Shown: positions 1,644 through 34,504, counted from the stretch's first letter. The stretch is DNA of 35,647 nucleotides from Alcaligenaceae bacterium (GCA_029267315.1 JAJUJD010000013.1:1-35647); one strand, 5' to 3'. The notes: generated from the sequence alone by a model not told the origin. Program-made: numbers and translations.

Positions 1644-3731
1644 TCAGGAACGACGCCTTCCGCCGTCAGGCGGATTATTCAAATCCAAATCGATTTCGCG
1701 CAGCTTCTCCTGCAGCATGGAATCGCTAATCGGGCTGTCAGTTTCAAAGGTGTCCTCGCGGGCAGAGCTGGCGCGACGCAGCAGCCATACTACGAGCAGC
1801 ACCAGGAGTGCAATACCACCACCAATCGCCCAGAGCATGTTTTTCTCCCACCAGGATTTGCCCCCTGCCTGTGAGGCCATGGGCGCAGGACCAGACGTAT
1901 CGGCTTGGCCAGGTGAAACACCTGCACCGCCCTGTCGTGACGCCGTAGTCGCTGACGACGAGGGGGCGGCGCCTGCAGAAGCGCCTGACCCAGTTGACTG
2001 AGAAGACGTGGCTCCTGATTGCGTCGCAGTTCGAGCTTCAGAGCCCGAAGCCCCGGCGGAACTGTCACCGGTTTGTGCCGAGCCTTGTTTATCCGCAGCG
2101 CCCGGTGCACCGGCTCCTGATGCAGAGCCCGAAGCGTCTGATGCAGAACCGGATGCCCGACCATTAGCGCTTGTTCCTGGGCCTACAGACTCGGTCGCAG
2201 AGCCGGGAGCGTCTGCTGCACTCCCCGTTTCAGTGCCCGCGCCGTTCACCGCCGCATCCGGGTCGACCAGATTAATCACTTCCTTGAGAACTTCAGTCAC
2301 GCTGCGCGCGCCTTCCAGGGCTGCTTCAGCCGCCACATGCCCCTGTTTCTGAAGGGCTTCGTTCAAGTGACGCACATTGTCTTCGAGCTCAACGATGCGC
2401 TTCTTGGATGCTTCGATGCCCTTTTGCTGCGCAGCGGCGTCATCAGGGTCGATGAGGGCGCCATCGGCGGATACGACTGTGCCTCCAGAGGAAGCCTCTG
2501 AACCGAACGGCACACGTGTTCCCTGATCGCTGGAGAGCGCATGAGGCCCCTGATGCAGGACCGCATCAGAAGCGATGTGCCCATTTGATGCCAGGAGACT
2601 CACCGGTGCTGAGCTCACTGCTGAGGCATTGGGCTCAGCACCGTTCGCCACATTTGAACCAGCTGCCGCTGTGCGGCCGCTTCCGGTGGCGCCGGAAATA
2701 CCAGCTGTTGGCGATGCGCCGGGGACACGGGTACCAGACAAGCGCAGGATATCGCTTCCTTGCGTATCTGCAGACGCGGAGGAGGACTCGGGAAGAGCGC
2801 GCGTTTCTTCCTGCACGGCACCTTCCGCTGCCGCCGCAACCGTCGAGGCGGCCACGACGTCGGCGCTCCCCGCGCGCTGACCATATCGCGCGAACGCCTG
2901 TACGTGTTGCATGAAGATGCGTCTGGCCTCGCGATCAGACAAGGCAGTCAGCACATCCATGTCGGGCATGGTCAACGTGGACCCGGCCCTCACAAGATTG
3001 ACGTTATCGTGAATGAATGCTTGCGGGTTACTGCGCTGCAGGGCGATCATCATTTGATAAACCGTCACACCCTGGACAGCGTTGCGACTGGCAACGGCGA
3101 ACATGTTGTCGCCAGGGCGTACGATGATCTGCCGGCCGGCAACACTCGAGTCAGTGCGGTCGGGCAAGGCCCCTTTGTTGTCTATGACTCGCCCAGTACC
3201 CCCGCTGCTGCTCACCGCGCGCTGAATGGCCCGGGAGTCGGCGTGAGCAATAAGGCTGACCTGATATCGTTGCTGGCCCGAGACGCTGCGCACATCGATT
3301 AGAACGTCGACGACGGACTGCTGCGCTGCAAGCGGCGAGCGAAGTTGAATCAGTTTGGCGTCTGGTCTGAAACCGTCCAGCAACACCAGCCTCATGGAAT
3401 CCAGTGGAACCGGCGGCGTCATGCCGGCCGCGCGCCAGGCTTCGGCGGGGGCCGGCGTTGCACGGATACTGTCAATTTCCTGCTGAGTTAGATCGGTAAC
3501 CGGGATTTCCAACAGCAGGGGCTGTCCCGGCGCAGATACTATGCGCGAATGCCCGAAATTGGCTGCATTAGCAGTAGATATGCAGATGGACGCCGTAAAC
3601 AGCGAGGCCAGAAGAAACGGGACAAGCGGCCGTATTTTTCTGTGTCGCTCAGACCGGGCCCCGTGAATCGGCCCATGGCAGGCATGAGAGGCCGGAGCAA
3701 CCGGACCGGAACCACGACGCGACATCTGCAT
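1644..3731 (-). CDS. fimV: FimV/HubP-like polar landmark protein with LysM domain and Ser/Ala/Gly-rich linker
   Basis: Signal/TM, FimV-type N-terminus (GHSRIVSAPGQPLLLEIPVTDLTQQEIDSIRA), LysM-like region (IIVRPGDNMFAVASRNAV...), one TM near the C-terminus and a short tail; located between asd and truA. Start likely at 3731 or 3725. Confidence 0.82.
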   Translation of the reverse strand: MQMSRRGSGPVAPASHACHGPIHGARSERHRKIRPLVPFLLASLFTASICISTANAANFGHSRIVSAPGQPLLLEIPVTDLTQQEIDSIRATPAPAEAWRAAGMTPPVPLDSMRLVLLDGFRPDAKLIQLRSPLAAQQSVVDVLIDVRSVSGQQRYQVSLIAHADSRAIQRAVSSSGGTGRVIDNKGALPDRTDSSVAGRQIIVRPGDNMFAVASRNAVQGVTVYQMMIALQRSNPQAFIHDNVNLVRAGSTLTMPDMDVLTALSDREARRIFMQHVQAFARYGQRAGSADVVAASTVAAAAEGAVQEETRALPESSSASADTQGSDILRLSGTRVPGASPTAGISGATGSGRTAAAGSNVANGAEPNASAVSSAPVSLLASNGHIASDAVLHQGPHALSSDQGTRVPFGSEASSGGTVVSADGALIDPDDAAAQQKGIEASKKRIVELEDNVRHLNEALQKQGHVAAEAALEGARSVTEVLKEVINLVDPDAAVNGAGTETGSAADAPGSATESVGPGTSANGRASGSASDASGSASGAGAPGAADKQGSAQTGDSSAGASGSEARTATQSGATSSQSTGSGASAGAAPSSSATTASRQGGAGVSPGQADTSGPAPMASQAGGKSWWEKNMLWAIGGGIALLVLLVVWLLRRASSAREDTFETDSPISDSMLQEKLREIDLDLNNPPDGGRRRS

Positions 3732-3735
3732 ATTC

Positions 3736-4866
3736 TTATAGTTCACCCAATGCGATACGTAACATGCGGCGCAGCGGTTCGGCGGCACCCCAGAGAAGCT
3801 GGTCGCCAACAGTGAACGCGCTGAGATACTCGGGCCCCATGGACATCTTGCGCATGCGCCCCACGGGAATGTCGAGCGTACCGGTGACTGCGACGGGCGT
3901 CAAATCGCGCATGGAGGCTTCGCGAGTGTTGGGTATTACCTTCGCCCATTCTGTGCCTTGTCGCACGATATCTTCGATCTCGTCCAGAGGCACATCGCGC
4001 TTCAGCTTGATGGTAAGCGCCTGGCTATGACAGCGCATGGCACCGATGCGTACACACAGGCCATCGATAGGTACGGGCTTGCTGCCAGAGGCTTCAGAGC
4101 GGCCGAGGATCTTATTGGTCTCCACACCGCCTTTCCACTCTTCGCGCGACACCCCATTTTGTAGATCGGAATCGATCCAAGGAATAAGGTTGCCGCCGAG
4201 AGGTACACCGAAATGTTCGGTCGGCAGTGATGAGTCCTTTTGTGTTGCCAATACACCACGGTCGATATCCAGAATTGCCGAGGCAGGGTCATCCAGCAAT
4301 GGCTTGACAGCACCATTGAGCAGGCCGAACTGGGTGAGGAGCTCGCGCATATGCTGGGCTCCACCACCGGATGCAGCCTGATATGTCATGGATGTCATCC
4401 ACTCGACGAGGTCGTGACGGAACAGACCGGCAAGGCCCATCAGCATGCAGCTGACGGTGCAGTTGCCACCGACAAATTCCTTCACCCCGCGGGCCAGAGC
4501 CGCATCGATGACGTCACGGTTGACGGGATCCAGCACAATGACGGAGCTGTCAGCCATGCGCAGCGTGCTGGCGGCATCAATCCAGATGCCGTTCCAGCCT
4601 GCGGCACGTAGCTTGGGGTAGACCTCGGTGGTATACCCGCCACCTTGTGCTGTCACGATGATGGGAAGTTTGGCGAGCGCGTCGATGTCGTAGGCGTCCT
4701 GCAGAGGACCTGCTCCGTCCGCCCACTCGGGCGCGGCGCCCCCCGCATTGCTGGTCGAGAAAAACACCGGCTGGAAATAGGAAAAATCGTTCTCGTCGCG
4801 CATGCGTTGCATGAGGACGGACCCGACCATGCCCCGCCAGCCGACCAGACCCACTACTTGGTTCAT
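3736..4866 (-). CDS. asd: Aspartate-semialdehyde dehydrogenase
   Basis: [39 protein letters not shown] active-site Cys region. Confidence 0.96.
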
Positions 4867-25135: not shown

Positions 25136-25606
25136 TTACAGCCGAGTGCCCTTGCCTCCCGAACGAGCGCTCGGTTGAACAATGGACGACTGAGCGCGGG
25201 CCGACAAGCGCGGAAATACCCTCAGCTGCAACGCAGCATGGATGTGCTGCAGATAGTCCGGGCGCCGATCGCAATAACCCGCCGGCAACTCCACCACCGA
25301 TGACGCGCGGCGTTCGTAGGCTATGCGGTTCGGCATCAGGCGCGTCCGCAGTCCACAAACCTTCATGTCCGAACTCAGAAAGACGACATCAATAGGCCGG
25401 TGCAGAAAAAACGTGTGGATGGCGCGACATGGGGTGATAAGCAGGCCCTCTTCTGGACCAAGGTAGGTCAGACGATGGAGCCCAAGCAAGCGAGAGAAGA
25501 ACGTCGGCGCAATGTGCAAGTTGAGCGCTGGCGTGTCGCGAACGCTTGTCATTGGAGGAAGAGTGGCTGTCATCAGGGAGTATCGATGGCTTGATGAGGT
25601 AGTCAT
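25136..25606 (-). CDS. DUF192-family protein at the end of the Tad cluster
   Basis: FFSRLLGLHRLTYLGPEEGLLITPCRAIHTFFLHRPIDVVFLSSDMKVCGLRTRLMPNRIA...VVELPAGYCDR; start overlaps tadC stop (ATGA). Confidence 0.82.
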   Translation of the reverse strand: MTTSSSHRYSLMTATLPPMTSVRDTPALNLHIAPTFFSRLLGLHRLTYLGPEEGLLITPCRAIHTFFLHRPIDVVFLSSDMKVCGLRTRLMPNRIAYERRASSVVELPAGYCDRRPDYLQHIHAALQLRVFPRLSARAQSSIVQPSARSGGKGTRL

Positions 25607-26472
25607 TCGAGCAGCTCAAGAAACTGTATGGCCAACGGGAAAGCAATGATCAGAAATGAACAGGGAAATATGCAGAAAACCAAGGGAAACATCAGCTTGA
25701 CCGGTGCCTCCAGCGCTTGCTTTTCTGCCCGAAGAAAGCTGTCGCTGCGCCATTGATCGGCATGCGCCCGCAACACGGGTCCAAGACTCATTCCCGACAT
25801 CTCAGCTTGCAATACAGCGGCTACAAATTGCTGAACTTGCGCCAGGTCACAGCGTTGGGCCCAGCTTCCCAAGGCATCCTGGCGCGAGGCCCCCGCTCTG
25901 ATATCAGCCAGAAGATGCCGGATCTCTTCCCTCAATGGACCATCCGGACCTTTTTCAGCCACTTGTCGAAGCGCACTCTGTAGATTGAGGCCAGCCTCCA
26001 CGCACAAAGTCACCATGTCCAAGAGGAAAGGGAATACCCTGAGCATGGCTCTCTGACGCCGCATTGCCTGGCGTCGCAGAAAATCGACCGGCCACCAGGC
26101 AGCACTGGCGGCGGTAAAAGCGGCAATCATGGCCACTGCAGGAACCGGCAGCTGCTGTGCGAGCGCCAGAACCACCAGGCCCGCCGTTGCCATGGCCAAC
26201 ACGCACTGCAAGGCAAAAAAGTGTTGAGGTGATTCAAAGGAGTCTGTGCCCGCCTGCTGCAAAAAGCGTGCAAGGCGATGTCGAAGGTTCCAACTCATAA
26301 AACGGCTGGCTACCGGAACGAGGGCCTCAACCCATGGCCAAACAAGTGAGAACGCCAGTGGTTGCCGTGGGCGGCGGGACACATTAAACCGTGTCAATGG
26401 GGAGCCCAGCCATAGGAGCAAGAGGCAAAGGCAGAGTGCAGCCATAAGGACGCTAACGCCCAACCACATCAT
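25603..26472 (-). CDS. tadC: Tad pilus inner-membrane platform protein TadC (T2SSF domain)
   Basis: Start taken at internal ATG 26472 (TAATG overlap with tadB); LRVFPFLLDMVTLCVEAGLNLQSALRQVAEKGPDGPLREEIRHLLADIRAGASRQDALGSWAQRCDLAQVQQFVAAVLQAEMSGMSLGPVLRAHAD. Confidence 0.92.
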   Translation of the reverse strand: MMWLGVSVLMAALCLCLLLLWLGSPLTRFNVSRRPRQPLAFSLVWPWVEALVPVASRFMSWNLRHRLARFLQQAGTDSFESPQHFFALQCVLAMATAGLVVLALAQQLPVPAVAMIAAFTAASAAWWPVDFLRRQAMRRQRAMLRVFPFLLDMVTLCVEAGLNLQSALRQVAEKGPDGPLREEIRHLLADIRAGASRQDALGSWAQRCDLAQVQQFVAAVLQAEMSGMSLGPVLRAHADQWRSDSFLRAEKQALEAPVKLMFPLVFCIFPCSFLIIAFPLAIQFLELLE

Positions 26473-27320
26473 TACACCTCTATCTTCACGATTCTTCGCA
26501 CCAAGCTGATACCGATGAATTCGAGCGTGAAAACCACTCCCAAAACCAGCCACCCGCCCGGGGTTGTCCATAGCGCCCGCATCGTAATGGGGTCTAGCAT
26601 GTTTAACGCTACGATGAGCAGCGCGGGCAGGCTACCCATGATCCACGCCTGCATACGACCCTGAGATGTCAGGGCACGGATTTTCTCAATCAGTTGCAGT
26701 CGTCCGCGAAGGGTGCGAGAGATTTGTTCAAGGGTGTCCGCCAGGCTGCCACCCGTGTCTCCGGCTACTTTTATCGCCGCAACAACCAGCGCAATGGACT
26801 CATTCGGAATGCGCCTGTTCAGAGCATCCAGCGCTTCAGCCAAACTCACGCCCATGCGCTGTTGCTGAAGTAGTAGGCCCAACTCCTGGGACAGCGGCCT
26901 GCGAGTATGCAGACATACCTGTTGCAGACCTTTTTGCAGCCCGGCGCCGGAGCGCAAAGTACCCGCCAGCGCCAGTAGGAGATCTGGTAATTGTTCCTCG
27001 ATCTGGCGATTGCGTCGGTGACGCGCCCATTGCAGCAAACAGCGAGGTAATAGCAGTGTGGCCAGCCCGGCCGCTGCTGCTATTACCAAGCTTTCTGAAA
27101 CCAGCAATGTCAGTCCGGCAGCAGCGAAGGCTAGCGAGACATTAGCACCCCACAACTGGGCCGGATCCAAAAACACGAAGAAGTCTGCAAGGTTGCTGAC
27201 AGCATCCTGCTGAAAGGTGACCCGGTACCTTCCGTATTCTCGTTGCAGCAATTGCATGCCTAGCCACGCGGCTGTTGTGGCCACCACGCCTGTGGCCAGC
27301 ATAAGGATCACGACCGCCAT
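26472..27320 (-). CDS. tadB: Tad pilus inner-membrane platform protein TadB (T2SSF domain)
   Basis: EEQLPDLLLALAGTLRSGAGLQKGLQQVCLHTRRPLSQELGLLLQQQRMGVSLAEALDALNRRIPNESIALVVAAIKVAGDTGGSLADTLEQISRTLRGR; start at internal ATG 27320. Confidence 0.93.
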   Translation of the reverse strand: MAVVILMLATGVVATTAAWLGMQLLQREYGRYRVTFQQDAVSNLADFFVFLDPAQLWGANVSLAFAAAGLTLLVSESLVIAAAAGLATLLLPRCLLQWARHRRNRQIEEQLPDLLLALAGTLRSGAGLQKGLQQVCLHTRRPLSQELGLLLQQQRMGVSLAEALDALNRRIPNESIALVVAAIKVAGDTGGSLADTLEQISRTLRGRLQLIEKIRALTSQGRMQAWIMGSLPALLIVALNMLDPITMRALWTTPGGWLVLGVVFTLEFIGISLVRRIVKIEV

Positions 27321-29122
27321 AAGCTCTCCATACCCGTGTGAGCCAGCGCACTTACCTGACACATCCATTCAGAGGGGACCAGTCGAGGATTTTCTGAAAA
27401 GCATTCTGGCTGAACCCCGCAGCCTTCAAAACGAGGATCCGGCTCCCCCCGATAAACGAAAAGATCCTGCGTCTGTATACGCCCGGCCTCTATACCGGTC
27501 ACTTCCACTATGGCGACGACCAAGCGCCGCCCGTCGGATAGCCGGGCTTGCTGAACGATGATGTCTACTGCCGCGGCAATATGTTCACGGATGGCGGAGA
27601 GTGGCAGATCCATGCCCGCCATGAGGACCATGGTTTCCAAGCGGGACAGCGCATCCCGCGGTGAATTGGCGTGCAAAGTAGTGAGAGACCCCTCATGGCC
27701 AGTGTTCATTGCCGCCAGCATGTCGAAAGCTTCAGCACCACGACATTCTCCGACGATGATGCGGTCGGGCCTCATGCGCAGCGCATTTCGTACAAGGTCA
27801 CGAATTTCTATTCTGCCTTTACCTTCTGCATTGGGCGGCCTGGCTTCCAGCGCGACAAGATGTTCGTGACTCAGCTTCAGTTCCGCTGCATCCTCGATCG
27901 TGATCAGGCGCTCCCCTTCTGGAATGCAGTTCGAAAGAATATTGAGGAGGGTCGTTTTGCCGGACCCTGTCCCCCCCGACACGAGTATGCTCTTACGCGA
28001 TTCCACACAGACGCTGAGAAATTGCGCCATGTAAGTATCAAGACTACCCGCCGCAAGAAGGTCGGCCATGGTAAGGCGGCGTTGCGGAAACTTGCGGATG
28101 GTCAGGCACGGACCGCGCAGGGCAATGGGCGGAATTACTGCATTTACTCGCGATCCATCCTTGAGCCGGGCGTCCACCATGGGAGACGACTCGTCCACGC
28201 GTCTTCCAAGCGGCGCAACGATACGATCAATGACAGCGCGAACGGCTTGATCGCTACTGAAACTGCGTGGGAGACGGTGCAGCTTGCCCGACTGCTCGAC
28301 AAATACCTCATCATGGGCGTTCACCATGATTTCACTTATTGAAGGGTCTGACAGCAGCGGTTCGAGGAGGCCCAGCCCCACCGCCTCATCTACGATTTCT
28401 CTAAGTAATTGTTCCTTGTCGGCGTTGGAGGGCAGCTCCATGTCATCGGCCAAGATGCGAGTCAATGCCTCCGCCGCTTCTTGACGCAGGACATCATCGC
28501 TGAGTGTCAGGATATCTCGGCGCCGCAAATCCAATGTCTCGAGCAGAGCCTTATGCAGGCGCCGGCGGTGGTGAATCTCCTCGTTGTGCTCCGAGCCGCT
28601 GTGCGAGTGTTGTCGTAGACGCGTACCTTGCTGTTGCGAAGTAAATTTTTCGGAGGCGTCCGGCAAATCCTCGGATCCCAGTGTTTCGTAAACCTCTGAA
28701 CCTGGCTTGGAATTGCTTGCGACTATGGCGCTGCAGGCGGCCATGTGTACTAATTCTGATACGTCGCCAGATCTTGCTTCACCATCACGTTGGGTCGGAC
28801 TTCCTGGGACCGAAGACGATGGAGTCCCGGGTTCGGGTAAGTTCAGTACGCGCATCCGACATGGACCAATGACGATTTCATCGTCAACGAGCAGCGGCCC
28901 GTACTGAGCGACCCGTTGTCCATTTACATGGCTTCCTGACAGCCCGCCCAGATCTTCGAGAAACAAGGATGACCCTCTCAGTTGGATTCGAGCGTGATGC
29001 TTTGCCACACGCCATGATCGCAGAGTCAAGGTGCAATCCTCTGCTCGTCCGATAGTGATCGGAAGTGCAAACCGCCTGCACTCGGTTCGCCCATCCTCGT
29101 AAGCCAATTCCATTGTCAACAT
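27308..29122 (-). CDS. cpaF: CpaF/TadA-family secretion ATPase with N-terminal FHA domain
   Basis: FHA-like N-terminus ([29 protein letters not shown]...[12 protein letters not shown]), then CpaF domain with Walker [21 protein letters not shown] and [46 protein letters not shown] extends to 29188. Confidence 0.94.
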
Positions 29123-29188
29123 TCGTGTTCCCTCTGACGATGTCTCCTTGCGGTTTCGTGCTGAACTCCCATTCCAACCCCGTCTCAT

Positions 29189-30556
29189 TCATTTGTTCTT
29201 GGGGCTCCATTGACCCCCCTCCCCCTTCCATGGCTGCCACATCGGCGTTGCGGCATTGGGCAAAGGTTTTTGCGGTGCTCCCATGTTCGATTTGATAAGC
29301 AGGGGTTTGTGTGGGAAGCCCTCTTCCAGCAGCGCCCTACCGTCAATGACTCTTTTCTGCAGATCCGGATGATCTGGAGCCGCTACGATCGGGGTGACGA
29401 AAACAGCGAGCTCCGTATCGTTTCTCTGCTTCCTCACTGAGCGAAACAGACTTCCGAGTAGTGGCAGTGCGCCCAGACCCGGAACGCTGTCAATGTTGCG
29501 GGCGTTTTCGCGAGACAAGAACCCAGCTAGTACGAGCGTCTGACCAGAGCGCGCGTTGAATTCTGTGGAGGCCCTACGCGTCTTCAAGGCCGGCCCGTTT
29601 TCTACTGAGAGCGCGTGGTCCACGGAACTTACCTCAACTTCAATCCGGGAACGGACGATGCCATTGCGCTCAACCTTGGGCGTGATGCGCAAGGACACGC
29701 CGTAGGGTTTGAACGCAGTATTGGTAGTACCGTTGGCGTCCGTCGTGGAATATGGCACTTCTCCCCCCGCCAGAAACTCCGCCGTTGAACCGCTGCGCGC
29801 TATGAGCTGGGGCTGCGCCAAGACAATGGCCTGCCCCGCCTGCTGCAGTGCATGCAATTGGGCTGGCCATAGGACGCTTGCACCCAAGTAGCCGGCGGCG
29901 ACTCCAGTCGGAAAGTTGGCGGGTACGACGTTTTCTCCGGGACGCTCAACGATACGACGGCTTCCACTGTCCCACGCAAGGGCGGCATTGATGCCCCCGC
30001 TTGCCGGCGACTGCCACCTTATGCCCAGTTCTTGAATGAGGGACCGTGGTACCTCGAGAACTTGGACATCGAGCATGACCATGCTGTCCCATCCAACCCT
30101 CCCGGTGAAATTCAGTATTTGCGGATAGCGTTGCGCCAGTGCTTCGACACGTAGCAAGTCGTCATCTGACAGCCCGTCCCCCTCCACCAAAAGCTTGTCG
30201 CCTACAGCAGTGAGCGCGACACCAGGGATACGACCCAGTACTTCGCGCAGTTCCTGTTCTATACGCCGGGCGCCTTCGGGGGCCACTTCGACGTCAAACC
30301 GGCGCCTTTTCCCGTCTGCCGACCAAATCTGCAGCACACTGGAGCCCTCATTTCTGGCAAACACAATGACTTCTTTTTCTTCCGTGGTCACGGCATTTAT
30401 GACATGTCCATCGCCGACCGCCACCCTGGCCACGTCAGTGGCGGAGAGCACGCGCACTTCCCCCACCTGCATGTGGAGCACTGTTTCACACCAGGCGGTG
30501 CCCGACTGCATGAAACAGACAAAGAGGACGAGGCGACAGTAGCGGCGGACGCTCAT
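29189..30556 (-). CDS. cpaC: Tad pilus outer-membrane secretin CpaC/RcpA
   Basis: HMQVGEVRVLSATDVARVAVGDGHVINAV (N-domain) and secretin core VLAQPQLIARSGSTAEFLAGGEVPY...VSLRITPKVERNGIVRSRIEVEVSSVD...LGALPLLGSLFRS. Confidence 0.95.
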   Translation of the reverse strand: MSVRRYCRLVLFVCFMQSGTAWCETVLHMQVGEVRVLSATDVARVAVGDGHVINAVTTEEKEVIVFARNEGSSVLQIWSADGKRRRFDVEVAPEGARRIEQELREVLGRIPGVALTAVGDKLLVEGDGLSDDDLLRVEALAQRYPQILNFTGRVGWDSMVMLDVQVLEVPRSLIQELGIRWQSPASGGINAALAWDSGSRRIVERPGENVVPANFPTGVAAGYLGASVLWPAQLHALQQAGQAIVLAQPQLIARSGSTAEFLAGGEVPYSTTDANGTTNTAFKPYGVSLRITPKVERNGIVRSRIEVEVSSVDHALSVENGPALKTRRASTEFNARSGQTLVLAGFLSRENARNIDSVPGLGALPLLGSLFRSVRKQRNDTELAVFVTPIVAAPDHPDLQKRVIDGRALLEEGFPHKPLLIKSNMGAPQKPLPNAATPMWQPWKGEGGQWSPKNK

Positions 30557-30559
30557 GGC

Positions 30560-31552
30560 TCACTCCATGCCGTCCACTGAAATCAGATCTGATGTGAGCA
30601 TGTCGCGATCCGCAATGCGTTGCTGCAGCCAGGCACTGGCAAGCGTCTGAGTATCAGGCAGGTCGAACAGCCCCGAGGGGTTCCTTACGACGGTCGCTTC
30701 CGGTATAAGCCGGGGCACTTTGCGCGGCTGCTGATTTCCATACAGCACGGGAGCCCTTGAAGCAGATCGGACGGGAGGAGGATTCGCCACACCCAGCAGA
30801 CTCGCCAAGTCGCCCCGCACGGCTTTCCTGGTGGGAAGACTGTCGGTCGGGTTGCGCAATACTGCTGTAAGCGTACCGGCTTGGCGAGCGGCGACCAGCT
30901 TGACTGCGTCTTCGGGAGAAGTATCGAGAGTCACGGTCGAGTACCCTCCTCCGGCGGTAACATTTTGCTCATTGATAGAGAGGGTCTGTGTCCCTGTGGC
31001 GAGCACCAGCACCCCTTGCAGTAAGGGGGCGGTTATTCTGCGCCGCTGATAATCGAAGGACACATAGAGATCGATCAGATCGCCCGGTTTCAGCAAGCCG
31101 GAAACCGAATTGATCGCATCAACCGGCATGGTAATGGCCCGTCGCCCTTCACCCAGTTGGGCAGAAAATGCCACATTCACCGTCTCTTGCGCGTGCGCTG
31201 GCACAATGAGATCTCCCGCCTTTAATCCGTGGCGCAGCACCAACCCTATTAGCGCCTCATGGCGACCGGGGGCCAGACTGTCACTGGGTACCAAGTGCAC
31301 CGGAAATTCCCGGGTGGCGAGATGCTCGACAGTGAGCCGTATACCGGGCGGCAGATCGTGGGCCGCTACAACTCGCGACACCATCGGAATACGTGACTGT
31401 GCCTCCAAGCGTTCAACATGACCCTGTATGTGCTGGCGGGCGGCCCAGGCAGCCACGAATCCGGCAAGGATGGCCAGTCCCAGTACAAGCACTGAGCGAG
31501 ACGCTCGACCCTGGTTTCTGAAACTTGGAATCAGTCGCTTCAGCCAGTTCAT
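30560..31552 (-). CDS. cpaB: Tad pilus assembly protein CpaB/RcpC (SAF domain)
   Basis: VVAAHDLPPGIRLTVEHLATREFPVHLVPSDSLAPGRHEALIGLVLRHGLKAGDLI; AITMPVDAINSVSGLLKPGDLIDLYVSFDY. Confidence 0.93.
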   Translation of the reverse strand: MNWLKRLIPSFRNQGRASRSVLVLGLAILAGFVAAWAARQHIQGHVERLEAQSRIPMVSRVVAAHDLPPGIRLTVEHLATREFPVHLVPSDSLAPGRHEALIGLVLRHGLKAGDLIVPAHAQETVNVAFSAQLGEGRRAITMPVDAINSVSGLLKPGDLIDLYVSFDYQRRRITAPLLQGVLVLATGTQTLSINEQNVTAGGGYSTVTLDTSPEDAVKLVAARQAGTLTAVLRNPTDSLPTRKAVRGDLASLLGVANPPPVRSASRAPVLYGNQQPRKVPRLIPEATVVRNPSGLFDLPDTQTLASAWLQQRIADRDMLTSDLISVDGME

Positions 31553-31553
31553 G

Positions 31554-32111
31554 TCAGTGCCCCGGGAGAGTTAGCACAACGCCCAAGCTGCCGGTTTCCG
31601 CAGGCGGAATGATGATGCGACCATCTGCCACTTCGCTTACTGACCCGTTCGGCGCTTCAAGTCCATTCGTCAATTCAAGTATCCCGGTCGGACCAAAATC
31701 GAAAATACGTTCTGGACCCTGGCCCAGCCTGGGAGCGGGGTTCGGGCTACCGGAGCTTCGGGTGGTATTGAGTGTCGAAACATAACCTTGGGCCCCGCCG
31801 GCACTGCCATGAATTTCGGCGAGCAGATGTTCCCCTTCACGCATGCCCGACATCAGCACGCGCCCGTCTCCTACAAGAAACCGCCTTAATTCTTTGTATT
31901 GGCGGGCCAACTCACGCACCGCGGCCTCTGGTGTCAGAGAAGTTGAGAAAGGTCGCACCGACAATTGTTGACCATTCAAACGCAGCTGCCAGGAATCACT
32001 CCATTCGATAATGTCTGCACGCGCTCCCATGCTTGCCGCCCCAAGGACAAGCCCTGCGAAGAGTGACCGCCAGACGGTGCGAACTGTCAGCAGCAAAACC
32101 AAACCGTGCAT
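31554..32111 (-). CDS. Hypothetical exported protein within the Tad operon
   Basis: 185-aa ORF with N-terminal hydrophobic export segment (VWRSLFAGLVLGAASMGARADIIEW); stop 1 nt from cpaB start; no family recognised. Confidence 0.78.
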   Translation of the reverse strand: MHGLVLLLTVRTVWRSLFAGLVLGAASMGARADIIEWSDSWQLRLNGQQLSVRPFSTSLTPEAAVRELARQYKELRRFLVGDGRVLMSGMREGEHLLAEIHGSAGGAQGYVSTLNTTRSSGSPNPAPRLGQGPERIFDFGPTGILELTNGLEAPNGSVSEVADGRIIIPPAETGSLGVVLTLPGH

Positions 32112-32130
32112 TCCCCCTCCTCATCCATAT

Positions 32131-32898
32131 TTATTCAACGATCAGGTATTCGGGCAGCATTCCTGTCCAGCGCGTCAACCAGTCAAACTCGGGGGCTGCC
32201 CTGCTCCATCCCGCGTCAACAGCCGCTGCCCTGCTGACTACAACGGCTCCCGCCTTGGCAGACTGCGCTTGAGCCTCTGACCATGCGTACGAGGAAGCGG
32301 CAGTGATCGCTTGCGTCTGGGTGTCGGATTCGGCATTGCCAGCGCCCGTCAGAATGGACGTGCTGCGCTGAATGCTGGGATAACTACCGTCGAAGGCATC
32401 GAGGCCGAGCAGGCCGTCTTCCCCTGCGACTCCACGCTTACGGAGGTCGTTGCGGAATTGAACGCTCAGCCGGGCACGCAGCACGCCGGTATCCTCAAGG
32501 CCCCATCCCCGCCGGAGTTCCGAGACATTCGGCTGTAGCCCGCCGGGCTGCGCAAAAGCAGTCAGCGTGTCGGAGCGCTGAATGTTCAGGGTCAGATCTG
32601 CGCTTGGATCAACCGCGGCCTTGGCCCGCCGGTCCAACCAACCATGTGCAGCACCCCTGAAGTAGCTGCGCACCATGGCAGCAGGCTCTGCGGCCTGTTC
32701 CGCGCGTGCAGCGACAAATGCTGCATGACGACTGGCGTGTGTCGCCGACAAGGCAATGTCCTGCAGGTGTGCAAGCCAAGGTATGGCCACCCACATGCTC
32801 GCCAAGACCAACATCAGCACGAGCGTCTCGACAATGGCTTGGCCCTTCTGAATCACAACATGCATAACCCATGTTGCAGAGTATCTGGCCGCGAACAT
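32131..32898 (-). CDS. TadE-like pseudopilin/pilus assembly protein
   Basis: ATG 32898 overlaps upstream stop (TGATG); class-III-like N-terminus KGQAIVETLVLMLVLASMWVAIPW. Confidence 0.78.
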   Translation of the reverse strand: MFAARYSATWVMHVVIQKGQAIVETLVLMLVLASMWVAIPWLAHLQDIALSATHASRHAAFVAARAEQAAEPAAMVRSYFRGAAHGWLDRRAKAAVDPSADLTLNIQRSDTLTAFAQPGGLQPNVSELRRGWGLEDTGVLRARLSVQFRNDLRKRGVAGEDGLLGLDAFDGSYPSIQRSTSILTGAGNAESDTQTQAITAASSYAWSEAQAQSAKAGAVVVSRAAAVDAGWSRAAPEFDWLTRWTGMLPEYLIVE

Positions 32899-34238
32899 CA
32901 CTTTTCCCCCTCGGCACTGGGTTTCCTTAGACGCGCGTGCCAATAGGGGTGGAAGGTGCTGGAGAGTTCTCTCAGCCCGTCCATACGATCATGAGGCCGG
33001 CGGAAATATGTTTCCGCGCCGCTGCGCGAATGCAATGTCAGGCCATCGCTCCCTTGCCGTTGCAGGGAGACGGTGAAATGCGCCGTGCTGGCTCGCCCTG
33101 AGGAAGACAGATCATGAAATACGGGAAGGCCCCCGCCTTCCCAGCGTTGTTTATCCCTGTATGCCCAGGAATTCGCCAGGGGGTTGCCGCCGCTATTGGC
33201 TATATCCCATCGCGTCGATTCGCGTACCCAGCGCCAGAAATCCTGCTCGGCAAAATTGTCAGGTGAGTCCTCTACGTACTCAAGATCCAGTAAATTCGAT
33301 TCTCGAGGCGGAATCCAACCCCAGCCCATGGGATATTCCCGGTAATAGCAGCCGATCCAGCGATTGGAACGGAGGGCATGGTAGGACTGCGTGTCGGTCG
33401 ACTGCCAGACCCCTTGCTCGCTCAACACTGTGCTTCCACGACGACGCAATTCATGACGCAATGTTGGACAGCGCGCACTGACCGGAAACAGACTGCGCCT
33501 CATGTAGTCGCGCGGCTCGAGGAATTCGTAAAGCTCAGCCAGCCCCCTGATGAAAGGCTGAAGCATTCGATTGCCGAAATAGGCCGACAGATAACTCGCC
33601 GCATTGTCATCGAAGACGTCCAGCCTGAACTCCGTATCACCGGAATAGTTGGACCGCACAACTTCCTGCATTGCCGCGTCACGTGATTCGGCGAAACGGT
33701 TCGCCACTTGAGACGCAGCCGAGGCCAGGACTGAGCGGTTCAACTCGTCGTGCCGGGCATACGCAGCGGCTAGAGGCCCTTGTTCCCTTGCCATATACTC
33801 CAGGCCACTAGCCTGGAGCGCAGCCAGATAAGCCGCTGCGTGTTCTGCCCCAAAGTGCATGGCAATCACATAGGCTGGTGGATTGGATAGCGATGCACGC
33901 TGTGCCTCCATGCCGGCGAAATGGGCCAGTGACCCGAGTGCTACCAGATGTGCCATGGCTATTTGATGCGCCACCTGAGCCCTATTGATATAAGCAAGCA
34001 TGTTGAGTGCGCGCGCCTGCACCAGCGCTCCGCTGTAAGCTGCGGCGTCAAGCACGTGGTCTTGTCGGGTCTTTTGGGCCAGTACTTTGCCGGCCTCGAA
34101 GTAATGGACCAGGGCCGTGGCCACGGCCCCAGCCAAAAGCAGGCCAAAAACCATCACCTGACCGTGCTGGCGGTCGCGAGCTTGTAGGCGACGGGGCGAT
34201 AGTGTGCTTTGCCTGTTCGCTTGTATGACCATAGACAT
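32898..34238 (-). CDS. TadG-like pilus assembly protein (large)
   Basis: RQHGQVMVFGLLLAGAVATALVHYFEAGKVLAQKTRQDHVLDAAAYSGALVQARALNMLAYINRAQ; single N-terminal TM and large extracytoplasmic region; start overlaps upstream stop (TGATG). Confidence 0.78.
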   Translation of the reverse strand: MSMVIQANRQSTLSPRRLQARDRQHGQVMVFGLLLAGAVATALVHYFEAGKVLAQKTRQDHVLDAAAYSGALVQARALNMLAYINRAQVAHQIAMAHLVALGSLAHFAGMEAQRASLSNPPAYVIAMHFGAEHAAAYLAALQASGLEYMAREQGPLAAAYARHDELNRSVLASAASQVANRFAESRDAAMQEVVRSNYSGDTEFRLDVFDDNAASYLSAYFGNRMLQPFIRGLAELYEFLEPRDYMRRSLFPVSARCPTLRHELRRRGSTVLSEQGVWQSTDTQSYHALRSNRWIGCYYREYPMGWGWIPPRESNLLDLEYVEDSPDNFAEQDFWRWVRESTRWDIANSGGNPLANSWAYRDKQRWEGGGLPVFHDLSSSGRASTAHFTVSLQRQGSDGLTLHSRSGAETYFRRPHDRMDGLRELSSTFHPYWHARLRKPSAEGEK

Positions 34239-34504
34239 CACTGGCCGGCAGCCGCATTGCCGGTAAACGACTTCAAGGTCCGTGCAGCCGTCTGCCCTGC
34301 GGCCGCTTCAGCCGCTGCTTGCGCCATGGCGGACTGCTCGGAACCGTCTTCACCGGCGAGCTCTCGCGCCATAGCGGCTGTCTGAGAACGCACCACCTGG
34401 CCAAACAACTGATAAACGGCAATGGCCGCCACAGCGACCAGCGCCACCACGATGATGTATTCGGTCATCCCCTGACCGGACTGCTTTCTGTCTTTGCGCA
34501 CCAT
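34238..34504 (-). CDS. flp: Flp-like class III pilin/prepilin
   Basis: MVRKDRKQSGQGMTEYIIVVALVAVAAIAVYQLFGQVV: G|QGMTEY processing motif with E5/Y6 and hydrophobic helix; strong SD (GGAGGAG) upstream of ATG. Confidence 0.82.
   Translation of the reverse strand: MVRKDRKQSGQGMTEYIIVVALVAVAAIAVYQLFGQVVRSQTAAMARELAGEDGSEQSAMAQAAAEAAAGQTAARTLKSFTGNAAAGQ

Follow-up and report, generated by a model that had tools for sequence, protein, structure and literature searches.

The stretch of DNA analyzed here (the window) is 35,647 nucleotides long and originates from an Alcaligenaceae bacterium. Between positions 25136 and 34504, the minus strand encodes flp, tadG-like, tadE-like, X, cpaB, cpaC, FHA-cpaF, tadB, tadC and DUF192, in this order. 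All ten genes touch or overlap, and the packed arrangement that had been proposed in the original prediction is made up of real open reading frames. The neighbors of the locus are liv transport genes and a gene for a 2OG-Fe(II) oxygenase. At some distance, a protein with a FimV N-terminal domain is encoded at 1644-3809 (minus strand), flanked by a semialdehyde dehydrogenase gene and truA.

The motor gene (27308..29188, like all ten genes on the minus strand) encodes a hexameric CpaF-type ATPase of class III with an N-terminal FHA domain. The product matched PF00437 with 6e-64, PF00498 with 1e-13 and TIGR03819 with 3.9e-103, the latter slightly below the cutoff of the family. Judged by its homologs, the true start is probably the Met at codon 23. 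Next to the ATPase gene are two contiguous genes for the inner membrane platform, tadB (26472..27368) and tadC (25603..26571), both with PF00482 (T2SSF; 2.7e-16 and 1.3e-18, respectively); the first ATG of tadC is probably upstream of the true start. The cpaC/rcpA gene (29189..30556) encodes an outer membrane secretin (PF00263, 2e-41) with a pilus N-domain (PF13629, 1e-13), and cpaB/rcpC (30560..31552) encodes an SAF and RcpC domain protein that aligns secretin and platform (Pfam RcpC/CpaB, 5e-24; TIGR03177, 147.6 bits with a cutoff of 71). The last gene (25136..25606) encodes a DUF192 protein (PF02643, 1.8e-11).

Pfam gave no convincing match of its own for the window copies of flp, tadG-like, tadE-like and the 185-amino-acid protein X, and these genes were therefore identified by their position, by prepilin motifs and by homologs. 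The major pilin Flp (34238..34504, 88 amino acids) has the motif SG/QGMTEY (E5, Y6), and the leading position of its gene is conserved in 35 of 38 loci of the clade described below. The tadG-like gene (32898..34241, 447 amino acids) encodes a large minor (tip) pilin that lacks Glu5; 22 of 26 homologs match the Pfam family Tad (PF13400), but the window copy does not. Its AF2 model (pLDDT, 89; pTM, 0.83) has one long N-terminal helix and an alpha/beta head, for which a fold search yielded no confident PDB match. The tadE-like gene (32131..32943) encodes a minor pilin of up to 270 amino acids with the motif KG/QAIVETL; the listed TTG start is probably upstream of the true start. All three pilin-like proteins of the locus have a prepilin motif; the third of these motifs reads HG/QVMVFG. 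Taken together, the features of a Tad (type IVc) system are present: CpaF with TadB and TadC, an Flp with a G/xxxxEY site, CpaB/RcpC and a Tad secretin.

Domain searches and reading of the open frames in the operon revealed no TadZ, no prepilin peptidase and no TPR/TadD gene from flp to livG, as had been predicted. The assembly of the genome has 3.10 Mb in 248 contigs and is 85.6% complete. A search with the FHA-CpaF found only distant secretion ATPases elsewhere in this genome, one of which is GspE, and RcpC/CpaB is present only once. Thus, no second Tad locus is present in the 85.6%-complete assembly, and the ten genes do not turn out to be a decayed copy of a canonical locus. Indeed, in a comparison of FHA-CpaF loci drawn from the bacterial order of the window and from named genomes, the ten-gene order was found again in about 38 loci from several families of Beta- and Gammaproteobacteria, including Neopusillimonas, Eoetvoesiella, Castellaniella, Rugamonas, Quisquiliibacterium, Acidithiobacillus and Pseudomonas; DUF192 was detected in 33 of the 38. 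Within the family of the window, 107 of 121 sampled genomes have an FHA-type CpaF, as judged by score. Intact and widely shared, the locus represents a variant of the known Tad machine that is built on an FHA-fused CpaF. Of the divergent sub-type that had been suspected, the distinctness stands, since the order is kept in about 38 loci and not decayed, but calling the locus unusual is not supported: within its family, this is the common type of Tad locus, and the FHA-CpaF has been published as class III (PMC12019362).

TadZ and the FHA domain exclude each other. Among 101 CpaF loci, TadZ was present in none of the 48 with a detectable FHA domain but in 49 of the 53 without. Four loci have neither: L047, L128 (on a short contig), L115 and L125. 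In L047, a frame-split FHA locus, the FHA domain only seems to be lost: the frame is broken, and a second cpaF piece is just upstream in another frame. L115 and L125, from Bdellovibrionota, are Tad-like loci without a CpaF FHA domain and without a detected TadZ; therefore, TadZ can be dispensable without FHA as well. At the level of genomes, a search with PF16968 (TadZ_N) was silent in all control genomes. In its stead, TadZ sequences of canonical loci were aligned; searching with this alignment recovered TadZ in 13 of the 14 genomes that carry a canonical locus. TadZ adjoins the canonical cpaF in 7 of 8 genomes that have both types of locus and is present in 6/6 canonical-only genomes. With the same alignment, no full-length TadZ was found in the 14 genomes that have only the FHA locus, that of the window included, and the 13 relatives among them, which are 91 to 100% complete, gave only partial ParA or receiver matches. 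Receiver domain matches in FHA loci did not qualify as TadZ, being on the opposite strand or apart from the operon. Since TadZ is missing from the (incomplete) genome of the window and from 13 relatives with only the FHA locus, we regard the locus as a Tad sub-type rather than as a canonical Tad locus.

Does the FHA domain substitute for TadZ, as the original prediction had it? The complete mutual exclusion (48 to 0) fits, but the substitution is unproven because the switch happened only a few times. The CpaF tree shows four changes of state for FHA and three for TadZ; one independent pair of these lies on well-supported branches. Repeated independent swaps could not be demonstrated. Moreover, a single clade of all FHA-CpaFs was not rejected (p-AU = 0.66). 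With so few changes and one clade not rejected, the exclusion may be plain inheritance from one event. In a 2026 map of the Caulobacter machine, CpaE/TadZ was called ubiquitous and CpaE was described as a ring around CpaF (PMC13170226); since CpaE rings CpaF there, a six-fold FHA could fill its place. A sub-type without TadZ contradicts the view of CpaE/TadZ as a universal Tad part and is a natural case in which to study the role of TadZ.

In canonical FHA domains, a conserved Ser contacts the phosphate. The FHA domain of the window CpaF (residues 44-108; 28865..29059) has kept GR, H and NG, but this Ser is replaced by Ala. Of 37 FHA domains in the clade, 33 no longer have this Ser (Ala or Gly in 32, Gln in one), and the Arg is changed to Lys or Ser in 17 of the 37, whereas all 11 FHA-CpaFs outside the clade retain the Ser. 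Also, no Hanks-type kinase above the cutoff was found in the genome of the window and in several complete relatives, with many in other families. The altered residues and the missing kinases suggest binding that may be independent of phosphate. Ser/Thr kinase-like genes were seen near the FHA-tad operon in L053 (17488-18828, minus strand) and L071 (216-1721, minus strand) by motif match; for L053, Pkinase matched at the same place as well.

A dedicated TadV/CpaA peptidase was not found in the window locus. Each of the 13 FHA-only relatives has exactly one A24 peptidase, which is of the PilD type, and no TadV-like one; an additional, short A24 peptidase is present in most genomes that carry a canonical locus. 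Two A24 peptidases are encoded in the genome of the window, one beside gspG (GspG, 8e-47) and one beside coaE. The idea that the locus borrows its peptidase from elsewhere is well supported by the gene content of the FHA-only relatives, and the pilins are most likely cut by a general PilD-type peptidase encoded elsewhere.

The ten-gene locus is not the whole system: of the TadE/F/G-type minor pilins of the genome, two are encoded in the locus and one is encoded on another contig. Loci of other families have a TadE-like gene downstream of tadC/DUF192 in 23 cases, but none of the 13 loci in the branch of the window has it. The only Pfam TadE gene in the genome of the window is an orphan on contig C31 (7873-8991, plus strand; L137) that encodes 372 amino acids and is located beside an hslO-like gene. 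Corresponding orphans away from the tad locus are present in three other genomes (G098, G138 and G176). With the orphans left out, the profile for the downstream TadE family still matched all four of them with 1e-37 to about 4e-41, and the best match of the orphan profile was in turn the downstream TadE family. By these reciprocal matches, the C31 orphan (3.8e-41) is the ortholog of the TadE gene that follows DUF192 in the 23 loci. Among the 121 genomes of the family, 103 have both FHA-CpaF and the orphan, 4 have FHA-CpaF alone, 3 have the orphan alone and 11 have neither (Fisher, 3.5e-10, a value that ignores kinship). Furthermore, the orphan is lacking in 4/4 genomes of one genus that have only a canonical CpaF. 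The C31 orphan is therefore likely the third tip pilin of this Tad system, a part that is overlooked by locus-based annotation.

Most loci of other families have a second flp gene between X and cpaB. The small Flp-like pilin (in L045-L054, L056, L062, L065, L067, L068, L071, L072 and L074) has the motif GQ[SA]xxEY and often ends with S-x-A-x-SLP; its position recalls the adapter pilins of the Kil system. It was not found in 11 genomes of the window's family, that of the window included, with 5/5 controls positive.

A hint to the function of DUF192 at the end of Tad operons comes from gene fusions. In four loci (L049, 12265-13518; L050, 1-963; L060, 12858-15254; L062, 12074-14683), DUF192 and the TadE-like pilin share a single open frame in which DUF192 is N-terminal and no ATG separates the two domains, which indicates a task shared with the tip prepilin. 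A probable role of DUF192 is that of a cytoplasmic chaperone or extended leader for the detached TadE-like prepilin. DUF192 was mentioned once before at the 3' end of Tad operons, in Bulleidia (PMC12786226), and we found it in Tad loci of other phyla as well. Protein X (31554..32111) is found only in FHA loci. By eye, it has the look of a secreted protein with a signal peptide-like N terminus. In an alignment of the family, most relatives have two alpha/beta repeats, as in the AF2 model of X from L058 (pLDDT, 85), of which the window copy keeps only the first. No Pfam family and no confident PDB match in a fold search were found; a match to the MucB fold was discarded (TM of only 0.13), and no lipobox was seen that would mark X as a TadD-like pilotin.

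We consider it likely that the system is a complete pilus machine, belonging to the FHA sub-type of Tad (type IVc) systems, and that its product is an adhesive surface pilus. In such a machine, Flp, the TadE-like and TadG-like proteins and the remote TadE-like protein from C31 would be cut as prepilins by the PilD-type peptidase. CpaF would power extension and retraction via TadB and TadC, and the fiber would exit through CpaC, which CpaB would keep in alignment. Docking or positioning, the task of the CpaE/TadZ ring in other Tad machines, would most likely fall to the six FHA domains of the CpaF hexamer, perhaps independently of phosphothreonine, and cytoplasmic DUF192 would handle the prepilin from C31. 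The product would be an adhesive, retractable Flp pilus. More speculative, and in our view rather doubtful as a whole, is that throughout the large beta/gammaproteobacterial clade the CpaE/TadZ ring has given way to the motor's own six FHA domains, which no longer read phosphothreonine, with DUF192 as the dedicated cytoplasmic partner or leader of the tip prepilin. For a secretory device, which had also been suggested, there is no direct support.

The pilus could also be part of a contact-dependent killing device that is formed at contacts with other bacteria and helps to deliver toxin, as in Myxococcus. The Kil system shares the FHA-fused CpaF, has scattered genes, lacks TadD and does not require its peptidase KilA for the main pilin (PMC8460266, PMC12075869), and the FHA-CpaFs of Myxococcota may join those of the window in one clade. 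A complete FHA-type tad operon on a Moraxella bovis plasmid (NZ_CP087831.1, 3411-18424; L141) has an RHS repeat-associated gene directly after it, an arrangement that would fit a killing role. This operon includes X, a second small pilin, DUF192 and TadE and has a DUF2235 gene on its other side. However, no toxin, needleless type III secretion system (T3SS) or extra FHA gene was seen adjoining the window locus, a rough motif scan found no RHS-like open frames in the other loci, a supported branch separates the clade from Myxococcota in the free tree, and the Kil authors confined Kil-like systems to predatory deltaproteobacteria. We regard a killing device as improbable. Still somewhat less probable is an ordinary split Tad system whose TadZ is on a missing contig or too diverged: the genome is only 85.6% complete and the silence of PF16968 is uninformative, but the TadZ alignment, positive in 13 of 14 canonical-locus genomes, gave only partial matches in the 13 nearly or fully complete relatives. 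That the locus is incomplete and probably inactive, like a cluster in Kerstersia gyiorum that was published as truncated, is very improbable, since, despite the lack of TadZ, TadV and TadD, all core genes are intact, flp is present and first, the order is kept across families and FHA-CpaF is widespread in the family.

The FHA sub-type can be compared with four known systems. Like canonical Tad loci (Aggregatibacter; Caulobacter cpa), the window locus encodes Flp, CpaB, CpaC, CpaF, TadB, TadC and TadE/G; unlike these, it has no TadZ, TadV or TadD within the locus, FHA, X and DUF192 are added, and tadG and tadE precede cpaB. The second tad cluster of K. gyiorum (tadE-orf-rcpCA-tadABC) likewise has no tadZ, tadV or tadD, but no flp was noted, FHA was not reported and the cluster was put down as truncated and likely null (PMC6461280). 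The conserved order and the spread of the sub-type would argue against this reading and may explain loci put down as truncated in Alcaligenaceae. Kil of Myxococcus xanthus resembles the window system in the FHA-fused ATPase, in the absence of TadD (in the window, within the operon), in TadEFG-like tip pilins encoded partly elsewhere and in the proposed sharing of a peptidase (PMC8460266, PMC12075869). Kil differs in having two clusters, many extra FHA genes, its own peptidase KilA and a function together with a T3SS; the window system is one ten-gene operon plus one remote pilin, and neither extra FHA proteins nor a KilA-type peptidase was found in the locus. Closest in the motor is class III of CpaF (FHA-IDR-CpaF; Nat Commun 2025), mostly from betaproteobacteria, which shares with the window protein the N-terminal FHA domain and the linker before the ATPase (PMC12019362). 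That study dealt with the architecture of the ATPase, and its main text mentions neither CpaE nor TadZ and, hence, not their absence (PMC12019362). The class III FHA-CpaF was thus already known; new are the mutual exclusion of FHA-CpaF and TadZ, the lack of TadZ and TadV along with a single PilD-type peptidase in the FHA-only relatives, the detached third pilin, the fusion of DUF192 to a pilin and the loss of the phosphate-contacting Ser in the FHA domain.
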